Of a DNA stretch of 64,000 nucleotides, positions 58,968 through 62,630 are shown piece by piece. The stretch comes from Borrelia anserina Es (lineage in GTDB: Bacteria > Spirochaetota > Spirochaetia > Borreliales > Borreliaceae). Where the stretch lies: positions 806,001 to 870,000 of the forward strand of contig NZ_CP013704.1 in assembly GCF_001936255.1 (NCBI RefSeq), written 5' to 3'. The notes under the pieces are model-generated. The model saw nothing but the letters and a program-made list of their open reading frames with translations. It did no database searches and was not told where the DNA came from. Every line of letters starts with the position of its first letter. The stretch's first letter is position 1. Position numbers and translations under genes: made by a program.

Positions 58968-59834
58968 ATGAAAAGTATGACAGGATTCTTTCACTTAGAG
59001 AGAGTAATTTCAAATTATATGTTTAGTATTAACTTAAAGTCTTATAATGGTAGATTTTTGGAATTTAAGTTTAAATTACCTGAAATTTTATATGCCTATG
59101 AACTTGATATAAGAAATTTTATTTCAAATTATGTTAAAAGAGGAAATGTTTTCTTAGGGGTAGGATATAAAGAAATAGTTCCAAGTATTAATTTTAGTTT
59201 AAATCCTAACTATATTGAGGCTATTACTCGTCTTAGGGATAGCTTATCGCATATTAATTTAAACATTAAGGATGAATTAAATCTTAGTGATTTTTTATCT
59301 TTAAAAGGGGCTTTAGTTATTGATGAAGATGATGTTAGTAAAGAAATGGTTTATAGTGCTTTTAAGGAAGTTTTAGAAGAGACTTTATTAAATTATGATA
59401 AGAGTAGAACCTTTGAGGGTGAAAATACTAAGCAGGATATAAGTTCAATTCTTATGTTAATAAGGAAGGATTTAGATCTTTTAAAGGAATCTCAGAGTAG
59501 TATTAATAATAAACTTTTCTTTAGTATTAAGGAAAATTTATTAAAGTTACTGGATGATTTTAATGATGTTAATGTTGTAGAAGAAGCTGCTAAGATGTCA
59601 ATTCGGTTAGATATTAATGAGGAAATAGTAAGATTATATTCACATATAGATAATTTTTATAAAAACCTTGAAAATGAAACATGTGGAAAGATTTTAGAGT
59701 TTATTGCTCAAGAAATGCATAGAGAGGTTACAACAATGAGCAATAAGGCAATTGATCTTGATATTAGGAATTTAGTTTTAAATATGAAGTTAAATTTAGA
59801 GAAAATAAAAGAACATCTGAGGAATATTGAATGA
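58968..59834 (+). CDS. YicC-family protein (endoribonuclease-like)
   Basis: The 288-residue YicC-like protein starts MKSMTGFFHLE, the family signature (usually MIxSMTGF). It continues with INLKSYNGRFLEFKFKLPEIL, YVKRGNVFLGVGYKE and the C-terminal EETCGKILEFIAQEMHREVTTMSNKAIDLDIRNLVLNMK, which matches the DUF1732 end with its conserved Glu residues. YicC proteins are recently described RNases or stress-associated proteins in other bacteria. It is 11 bases after murC; the kinase gene overlaps its stop by four. Confidence 0.9.
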   Translation: MKSMTGFFHLERVISNYMFSINLKSYNGRFLEFKFKLPEILYAYELDIRNFISNYVKRGNVFLGVGYKEIVPSINFSLNPNYIEAITRLRDSLSHINLNIKDELNLSDFLSLKGALVIDEDDVSKEMVYSAFKEVLEETLLNYDKSRTFEGENTKQDISSILMLIRKDLDLLKESQSSINNKLFFSIKENLLKLLDDFNDVNVVEEAAKMSIRLDINEEIVRLYSHIDNFYKNLENETCGKILEFIAQEMHREVTTMSNKAIDLDIRNLVLNMKLNLEKIKEHLRNIE

Positions 59835-60370
59835 GAATAGCTATTTCTAGTAAGAGCGGTTGTGGTAGTACAACTATTAGTGGAATGCTTGCAAAGCATT
59901 ATGGTCTAAAGCTTATTAATTATACTTTTCATGATATTGCTAGGGAAAAAAATATTCCCTTTGATACATTTTATGAGAAAGAAATTATTTGTAAAAATGA
60001 TTATTATTGGGATGAGTATCTTGATAATAAATTATTGGAGCTTTCAAAGGAGGATAATACAGTTCTTGCATCTCGTCTTGCAATTTGGCTTTCAAAAAAT
60101 GCTGATTTAAAGATATATCTTTATGCTAAGATAGAAATGCGGGTAGAGAGAATAATAAATAGAGAAGGTGGCATGTATTCTGATGTTTTAAGTAGGACTT
60201 TTAATAGAGATTCTCATGATTTAAAGAGGTATTTGTCTATATATAATATAGATATTGATAATTATTTAGATGTGGCCGACTTTATAGTTGATACAACTGA
60301 TAGATCTGCAGACAAAGTTTTTGAGTTGATAAAGGATGAAATAAAGAGAAGGAGTTTATATATTAAATAA
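59831..60370 (+). CDS. Cytidylate-kinase-like protein (Cytidylate_kin2 type)
   Basis: The 179-residue P-loop-fold protein starts RIAISSKSGCGSTTISGMLA. The usual Walker A Lys is replaced (GCGSTT rather than GxGK[ST]), as in the Cytidylate_kin2 family with its GSGG-type loop. ASRLAIWLSK, MRVERIINREGG and the C-terminal DFIVDTTDRSADKVFELI are consistent with a CMP-kinase fold. Substrate is uncertain; a conventional Cmk probably exists elsewhere in the genome. It overlaps yicC by four bases and is followed by rpoZ. Confidence 0.75.
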   Translation: MRIAISSKSGCGSTTISGMLAKHYGLKLINYTFHDIAREKNIPFDTFYEKEIICKNDYYWDEYLDNKLLELSKEDNTVLASRLAIWLSKNADLKIYLYAKIEMRVERIINREGGMYSDVLSRTFNRDSHDLKRYLSIYNIDIDNYLDVADFIVDTTDRSADKVFELIKDEIKRRSLYIK

Positions 60371-60391: not shown

Positions 60392-60589
60392 ATGAAAATA
60401 CCTTTAAAAGAGATACAAGATTTTGATGGCAATTATTATGAGCTTGTTATGGCGGTGATAGTTCGTACGGAGCAAATTATTGATCAAATTTCTTTAGCGG
60501 GGCATACTACTTCTGACGAAAGAGTGGTGGGACAAGCTTTTAATGATATTTTGACAGGCCGGTTTACGTATTCAATTGAAGAAAAATAA
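60392..60589 (+). CDS. rpoZ: RNA polymerase omega subunit (divergent)
   Basis: A 65-residue protein with the omega-family pattern: an N-terminal [30 protein letters not shown] helix (usual A-x-x-RA) and a C-terminal [17 protein letters not shown] (usual A-x-x-EIxxGKI). Omega stabilises the beta' subunit. AGGAGG and a G6 run lie upstream of the ATG. Position before miaA and after a kinase mirrors the gmk-rpoZ arrangement elsewhere. Its last 14 bases overlap miaA. Confidence 0.75.
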
Positions 60590-61490
60590 AATAGTTTTTA
60601 TATTTGGACCTACAGCCGTAGGCAAAAGTGATATTCTATTTAATTTTCCAAAGGGTGTAACTGAAATAATTAATGTTGATTCTATTCAAGTTTATAGAGA
60701 GTTTGATATTGCTTCTTGTAAGCCCAGTTTTGAATTAAGATCTCATATAAAACATCATTTAGTCGATTTTTTGGAACCGACTGAAGAGTATAATCTTGGA
60801 ATTTTTTACAGAGAGGCATGTAAACTCATAGAGAATTTAAAGGAGCAAAATAAGCTTCCTGTATTTGTAGGTGGATCGGCTTTTTATTTTAAGCATTTAA
60901 AATATGGATTGCCTGCTACGCCGCCTGTTTCTTCTGAAATACGGTGTTATATAAATACTCTTTTTACTCTAAGAGGTAAAGATTATCTCTTAGAGGAGCT
61001 TAAGAGAGTAGACTTTGAAAGATATGAATCAATCAGTAAAAATGATATTTATAGGATTAAAAGATCGCTTGAGGTTTATTATCAAACAGGTATTTCAATT
61101 AGTCAATTCCTAAAAAGAGGTCAGATGCTTGAAAATATCTTAGCTATTGGGTTGAAGAGGCCGATGGAAGAAATGAAGTCTAGGATAATATCTAGGGTAA
61201 ATGATATGATTGATTGTGGATTACTTGAAGAGGTTAAGAGATTATTGGGGAAAGGATACAATGATACAACGCCGGCTTTTAAAGGAATAGGATATCGTGA
61301 ATTTTTATTGTGGAAGAGTAGACCTTATTATATGTTAAATGATATAATAGACTTAATAGTGAAGCATTCATTTTTGTATGTAAAAAGGCAGATGACTTTT
61401 TTTGACAAAATTCCTAATGTTTTGTGGTTTCATCCTGATGATGACTTAAAGGACATTTTGGATTTAATTTTTGGTAGTAAGGAGATATGA
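60576..61490 (+). CDS. miaA: MiaA, tRNA dimethylallyltransferase
   Basis: The 304-residue enzyme prenylates A37 of tRNAs reading UNN codons. Motifs are the P-loop [33 protein letters not shown], the [14 protein letters not shown] block, [15 protein letters not shown] and [15 protein letters not shown]. Slightly short but complete. The start is TTG at 60576 inside the rpoZ end. The small basic ORF at 61494 follows its stop by three bases. Confidence 0.95.
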
Positions 61491-61493
61491 GAC

Positions 61494-61589
61494 ATGCCTT
61501 GTGGAAGAAAAAGAAAGTTAAAAAAAATATCTACTCATAAGCGCAAGAAAAAGAGAAGACAGAATAGACATAAAAAGAAGAATAAGTAA
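61494..61589 (+). CDS. 31-residue basic protein, bS22/mS38 (AURKAIP1/COX24) family
   Basis: ATG at 61494 has AAGGAGAT eight bases upstream and follows the miaA stop by three bases. It encodes MPCGRKRKLKKIS then THKRKKKRRQNRHKKKNK. Almost every residue is Lys, Arg, His or Asn, in the KRKxKKxxTHKRKKRxxxxRHKKK pattern of the AURKAIP1/COX24 domain. That domain is known as mitochondrial mS38 and mycobacterial bS22, located on the small subunit near the decoding region. It is too short for most gene callers. Ribosomal function is inferred from family resemblance. Confidence 0.82.
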   Translation: MPCGRKRKLKKISTHKRKKKRRQNRHKKKNK

Positions 61590-61599
61590 TTAAAATGTT

Positions 61600-61631
61600 T
61601 GTTAGTTGGTTTTTTGTTAGCTAACATTTTT
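61600..61631 (+). terminator. Probable terminator of the rlu-miaA-bS22 block
   Basis: TGTTAG (61600-61605) pairs with CTAACA (61621-61626), followed by TTTTTA. A nested TGTTAGCTAACA palindrome overlaps the right arm. It lies between convergent genes, where a terminator is expected; the stem is short. Confidence 0.4.
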
Positions 61632-61645
61632 ATATTATTAGCTGC

Positions 61646-62005
61646 TTATTCAATAATTATGTTATTTATTATGTTTATATCTTTGCTAAAGATGTATCCT
61701 TTTTTACCTTTATATGTTGCTAATATCCATTTACCTTTAATTCCGTGTTTTTCTGTGCTTTGCATGATTTTTTTGATTTTTACTATTTCATCTTTTCTGA
61801 TTATTGTCAGATAATCGTAATCGGTATTGTCTATTTTAGGTTTTTTATTTAAAAGGACATAATTTTTTGTTATGATTCCTACTTTTCTTGAAAATCCTAA
61901 GATGCTGCTTTTGGGTAATTTGCATTCTTTTATTAAGGGAATTTCTAAGTTCTTGTTGCATGTTAAAAACATTATAGAAATTAAGGATAGCAATTTTATT
62001 TTCAT
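61646..62005 (-). CDS. Small lipoprotein with SH3-like domain
   Basis: The 119-residue protein has a short signal sequence ending in a lipobox (ISIMFLTC, Cys at about residue 16). The mature part looks like a bacterial SH3 domain: GIITKNYVLLNKKPKID, then DYLTIIRKDEIVKIKKIMQ and GKWILATYKGKKGYIFSKDI. SH3b domains commonly bind peptidoglycan or cell-wall peptides, so a periplasmic anchor is a reasonable guess. It is a single minus-strand gene, divergent from the barrel-like gene at 62082. Confidence 0.7.
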   Translation of the reverse strand: MKIKLLSLISIMFLTCNKNLEIPLIKECKLPKSSILGFSRKVGIITKNYVLLNKKPKIDNTDYDYLTIIRKDEIVKIKKIMQSTEKHGIKGKWILATYKGKKGYIFSKDINIINNIIIE

Positions 62006-62081: not shown

Positions 62082-62630
62082 ATGAAAAGATGTATTTTTT
62101 TATTGTTTCTATTGTTTCCTTCAAGTGACTTAATATTTGCATATCCATTGTCTTTTGGAGGGGGGATTTCTTATCAGTTCACTAATTATGCTAGTAAGGA
62201 CAATATAAGTGATTCTGCAGTAACTTATAGTAGAGTAGATAATGGGATAAATTTGAATTTGTTCTTTGATGTTAATTATCTTATTTTAGATATATCTTAT
62301 AAAGATGCTTTTTTGTCTGGTCATCATAGTAGATATTTTGCTTTTGGATTTTATGGAATTTATCCGATTATTTTTAGGGAATATGTTAGAGTATTGTTTC
62401 CTCTTCTTGGAATTAAATATACGATTGATTTAAGTATTAAGAGAATAAATTTGTTGTTTTTTTCTTTGGGATTTGCTGCAGATCTTTTCGTTCCTGAAGT
62501 TGAAGGGCTTTATATTAGACCTTTATTTATGCTTTCAATTTCACCTACTTCTTTTGCTGTAGAAAGTTTTTCTTCTTTAACAACTGAGATTACGCTTGGA
62601 GTTAATATTGGTTGGAAATTTCTCAGTTAG
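62082..62630 (+). CDS. Exported protein, possible small outer-membrane beta-barrel
   Basis: A 182-residue protein with a signal peptide (MKRCIFLLFLLFPSSDLIFA). The mature part alternates aromatic/hydrophobic and polar residues in strand-length stretches (LSFGGGISYQFTNYA, INLNLFFDVNYLILDISYKDAFLSG, RYFAFGFYGIYPIIF, EITLGVNIGWKFLS). It ends near an aromatic residue, as outer-membrane barrels often do. No family recognised. It is monocistronic, with the next gene convergent and overlapping by eight bases. Confidence 0.6.
   Translation: MKRCIFLLFLLFPSSDLIFAYPLSFGGGISYQFTNYASKDNISDSAVTYSRVDNGINLNLFFDVNYLILDISYKDAFLSGHHSRYFAFGFYGIYPIIFREYVRVLFPLLGIKYTIDLSIKRINLLFFSLGFAADLFVPEVEGLYIRPLFMLSISPTSFAVESFSSLTTEITLGVNIGWKFLS

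Follow-up and report, generated by a model that had tools for sequence, protein, structure and literature searches.

A 31-codon open reading frame just downstream of miaA in the window, by which the whole stretch of 64,000 nucleotides analysed is meant, is almost certainly the gene for bS22, a stable, helical peptide of the small (30S) subunit: it closes a cmk-rpoZ-miaA-bS22 gene run, and its product would occupy the pocket formed by helices h2, h27, h44 and h45 of 16S rRNA. The protein has been known since the 2023 cryo-EM study of the Borreliella burgdorferi 70S ribosome (Nat Commun 2023, PMC10618245; PDB 8FMW), to which the discovery belongs; the first-pass annotation, which had proposed a bS22-like gene from the letters alone, was right but not new. 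What is added here is small, and consists of an ATG start, a K23Q replacement and further changes in Borreliaceae bS22 not listed so far. An easily missed ribosomal gene is thereby confirmed in a further Borrelia genome.

The frame, reported with its surroundings in Table 1, runs from ATG to TAA and encodes MPCGRKRKLKKISTHKRKKKRRQNRHKKKNK, of which 58% is K+R. When both strands of the 64 kb window are screened for ORFs of 28-60 aa, this one alone reaches 50% K+R. The TGA stop of miaA (61488-61490) is separated from the ATG by three bases, GAC, and the two genes share the same frame. The description of a basic 31-residue ORF with a good ribosome-binding site three bases after miaA was thus verified in its coordinates, in the AGGAG motif and in the GAC gap; the longer motif AAGGAG is kept upstream of the start in all aligned Borreliaceae copies. 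The frame is not an overlooked extension of MiaA, since a stop lies between miaA and bS22 in every Borreliaceae copy examined. The distance between the two genes varies within the family: MiaA ends 3 nt before bS22, and in frame with it, in the window (61470-61490) and in most Borreliella, while in most other Borrelia it ends 13-17 nt before bS22 and in a different frame.

Table 1. Features of the bS22 locus; positions are counted from the first letter of the window.
Feature	Position	Strand	Evidence and remarks
Cytidylate kinase-like gene (cmk)	59831..60370	+	PF13189, E 2.2e-13; upstream, same gene run
rpoZ-like gene (RNA polymerase omega)	60392..60589	+	PF01192, E 0.0014, under the curated cut-off; synteny; same gene run
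miaA (tRNA dimethylallyltransferase)	60576..61490	+	PF01715, E 6e-64; synteny; putative start
Shine-Dalgarno sequence AGGAG	61480..61484	+	9 nt to the bS22 ATG; inside the 3' end of miaA
bS22 gene (small-subunit ribosomal protein, 31 aa)	61494..61589	+	ATG/TAA; orthologue of B. burgdorferi bb0822
Possible AU-rich hairpin with a U-rich tail behind it	61600..61626	+	weak candidate terminator, just after bS22
Conserved Borreliaceae gene	61646..62005	-	no Pfam match
Conserved Borreliaceae gene	62082..62630	+	no Pfam match

The identity of the gene was established by a phmmer comparison with PDB sequences, in which the best match was chain V of 8FMW, deposited as '30S ribosomal protein bS22', with 27 identities over 28 residues and an E value of 3.9e-11. 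In B. burgdorferi the protein was 'genetically non-annotated'; it was detected from cryo-EM density and then assigned to bb0822, located at 867605-867697 of AE000783.1 and starting with GUG (PMC10618245). The window protein matches G251:C11:867605-867697 (locus L031), exactly the published coordinates of bb0822, and the neighbours at that locus are those of the window, with cmk, rpoZ and miaA before bS22 and the same two genes after it. Matching coordinates, matching neighbours and near-identity of the products identify the window gene as orthologous to bb0822. The two genes agree in 27 of the 28 modelled residues, in their place after miaA, in length and in Shine-Dalgarno context; they differ by K23Q and by the ATG which replaces GTG. 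In the window genome bS22 is matched only once, and the search for a paralogue elsewhere in it was negative.

Conservation was evaluated at two levels. Loss of the frame in close relatives, which the first-pass annotation had named as evidence against a gene, was not seen: the 18 genomes of the genus all carry it, open and in one copy. Across Spirochaetota, matches were found in 254 of 296 genomes, and in 211 of 231 when only good-quality genomes are counted; a few of these matches have E values above 0.01 and may be due to chance. In an alignment of 30 Borreliaceae copies, first, second and third codon positions vary at 5, 2 and 26 sites respectively, each of 30; variation at 26 third positions against only 4 of 30 variable residues, in spite of 26 variable codons, indicates purifying selection on the protein. 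The sequence is short and A-rich, and frames of this kind are often missed or spurious, so that an untranslated, low-complexity frame arising by chance after miaA had to be considered. This reading has next to no probability in view of the phylum-wide conservation with third-position variation, the conserved Shine-Dalgarno sequence and the orthologue modelled in cryo-EM density; the codon-position pattern and the B. burgdorferi structure refute it. Conservation on this scale, across the genus (intact in 18 of 18 genomes) and in 254 of 296 Spirochaetota, marks the frame as a real gene.

Within Borreliaceae the window copy stands apart at two points. Its start codon is ATG (61494-61496), against GTG in every other Borreliaceae copy read, and residue 23 is Q (codon 61560-61562), against K in the other copies read. 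The published account states K10Q as the only change of bS22 among Borrelia (PMC10618245). K10Q is present in loci L009, L010, L013, L015 and L016, but additional changes were detected: K23Q in the window, K31R in L014 and in B. persica (L054), and K29R together with K31R in L017. Three named Borreliaceae loci were gathered by using miaA as query. The modelled chain in 8FMW ends at residue 28 (PMC10618245), which may explain the absence of the C-terminal changes from the published list. In a tree based on rpoZ-miaA DNA the window genome is placed at the base of a group including B. recurrentis, B. persica, L013, L015 and L016 (group support 98/96). Since L009 and L010, which also carry K10Q, fall outside this group, there has been more than one gain or loss of this replacement.

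miaA and bS22 are probably co-transcribed. The hairpin following bS22 has a predicted energy of -7.6 kcal/mol (z -1.66), with 17 of 200 shuffled sequences as stable, and a terminator scan downstream of bS22 flagged nothing. Conservation downstream of miaA in other spirochaetes, a check suggested in the first-pass annotation, gave a divided answer: the linkage holds in all Borreliaceae loci, and miaA lies directly upstream of bS22 in some sampled loci of other Spirochaetota (L032, L035, L043, L061, L063), but it is missing at many others and is therefore not a general marker of bS22.

In the B. burgdorferi ribosome bS22 sits in an RNA pocket made by h2, h27, h44 and h45 of 16S rRNA and touches H68 of 23S rRNA (PMC10618245). 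Inspection of Borrelia 30S maps, also advised earlier, had thus already been carried out by others in B. burgdorferi, with a positive outcome. By analogy with that structure, bS22 would take the same position in the window species, whose protein is orthologous by sequence, and by its place after miaA, to the one modelled in 8FMW. Proteins of this pocket (bS22, mS38, eL41) are short, helical and contain about 55-65% K/R, a range into which the window protein falls, its pocket position being taken from B. burgdorferi. In Cutibacterium acnes the protein of the same pocket is reported to form an additional intersubunit bridge and to contact the 30S neck (PMC10085706). In yeast mitochondria mS38 contacts h44 and affects the decoding region, and its loss alters both the region of h44 and initiation at COX mRNAs (PMC6582356). 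The peptide would be made from its own strong Shine-Dalgarno sequence beside the miaA stop, as the last product of a presumably co-transcribed cmk-rpoZ-miaA-bS22 run. Its K/R-rich, bent helix would insert among the four 16S helices and reach H68, and might both stabilise upper h44, in the decoding region, and add an intersubunit contact. An influence on initiation or antibiotics, proposed for relatives, may by the same analogy extend to Borrelia, as may one on the joining of the subunits or the binding of drugs.

Other data on the B. burgdorferi gene are consistent with a ribosomal function. No transposon insertions have been recovered in bb0822 and its transcript is abundant (PMC10618245), which fits an important ribosomal protein, keeping in mind that a 93-bp gene can escape insertions by chance. 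Detection by ribosome mass spectrometry, the remaining check put forward, turned out negative: bS22 is the one ribosomal protein missed by LC-MS/MS of B. burgdorferi ribosomes (PMC10618245), either because the database lacked it or because a K/R-rich digest hid the peptide. Since the same protein was modelled in density, absence of the peptide from tryptic data is a poor refutation. A main role outside the ribosome, antimicrobial or in nucleic-acid binding, with the ribosomal position being secondary, could be suggested by the observations that growth of bacteria is inhibited by the bS22 peptide of C. acnes, and cell-free translation by external addition of this peptide or of human eL41 (PMC10085706). 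Such activities are however expected of any added cationic peptide from its charge, the gene is found among housekeeping genes, and the ribosome structure shows the Borrelia protein in place (PMC10618245), which makes this role very improbable. Literature searches on bL38/Flavobacterium and on bb0822 returned only the B. burgdorferi paper (PMC10618245), and no literature was found in which a spirochaete lacking bS22 had been examined functionally.

The ribosomal assignment of bS22 leaves its ancestry to be considered separately. The next PDB matches of the window protein were S22-type chains, with E values of 5.6e-06 (Flavobacterium-type) and 3.6e-04, and a profile of spirochaete relatives retrieved only three convincing PDB sequences, all of them S22-type ribosomal chains. 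The Flavobacterium johnsoniae-type S22 (PDB 7JIL chain 5, 9OZ9, others) shares length and the pattern MPxGxKRK...THKRKK...NRHKKK, with about two thirds of its residues identical to the window protein. Actinobacterial bS22 (NF047430; PDB 5O61, 8CRX) is similar in size, in K/R content and in its reported location in the h27/h44/h45 pocket; its sequence profile, however, does not match the window protein. Mitochondrial mS38/AURKAIP1/COX24 (PF08213) has a reported analogous position and bend (PMC10618245), but is longer, with an N-terminal extension.

The bS22/mS38 (COX24) resemblance initially noticed is upheld for bS22, through chain V of 8FMW, and not for the COX24 domain: the recommended search with PF08213 (COX24_C) gave no match to the window protein at E values up to 10. 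None of 100 Spirochaetota genomes contained a PF08213 match above the curated cut-off of 23 bits. Below it, the profile matched 6 of 21 spirochaete relatives, nearly end to end, with a best E value of 2.2e-4; the best relatives scored 18-21 bits. Divergent Spirochaetota members (MPSVKKKKRAKIAKHKRKKKLRKNRHKKK) are matched end to end, with E values of 2e-4 to 2e-3. No match was obtained with shuffled sequences, four derived from one of the matching relatives and three from the window protein, so that the resemblance of the divergent relatives is not due to composition alone. NF047430, with its cut-off of 34 bits, does not match the window protein and is weakly matched by two spirochaete relatives (best E 0.0083). 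Loci L056-L063 represent a divergent bS22 type (MPSVKKKKRAKIAKHKRKKK...) with a weak link to PF08213.

Independent origin of two analogues, spirochaete/Bacteroidota bS22 on one side and actinobacterial bS22/mS38 on the other, converging on the same pocket, would account for the failure of both profiles on the window protein, and for the 14% probability obtained by hhalign when the spirochaete alignment was compared with one mycobacterial-type bS22 (a sequence checked only by its strong NF047430 and PDB matches). Convergence is less easily reconciled with the PF08213 and NF047430 matches of the divergent members, lost upon shuffling in the case of PF08213, or with the same pocket and bend being reported (PMC10618245), and is considered rather unlikely; it bears on ancestry, leaving untouched what the gene is and does, and so can be held together with the assignment of the window ORF to bS22. 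Common ancestry of Borrelia bS22 with the actinobacterial protein and with mS38 of mitochondria is plausible, though sequence does not prove it, and the MPSVKKKKRAKIAKHKRKKK type may plausibly form a bridge to the PF08213 family. On balance the reading leaned towards is that bS22 is nearly phylum-wide in Spirochaetota and that forms such as MPSVKKKKRAKIAKHKRKKK link the Spirochaetota/Bacteroidota proteins with actinobacterial bS22/mS38 in one ancient homologous family.

Being widespread in Spirochaetota, bS22 should be taken into account in models of the spirochaete ribosome, in annotation pipelines and in work on drug binding. Its genes may be recovered by a spirochaete-type profile with GTG starts allowed, rather than by PF08213. 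The naming is inconsistent, the same Flavobacterium-type sequence being called S22 or L38 in different PDB entries (7JIL chain 5, 9OZ9, others).
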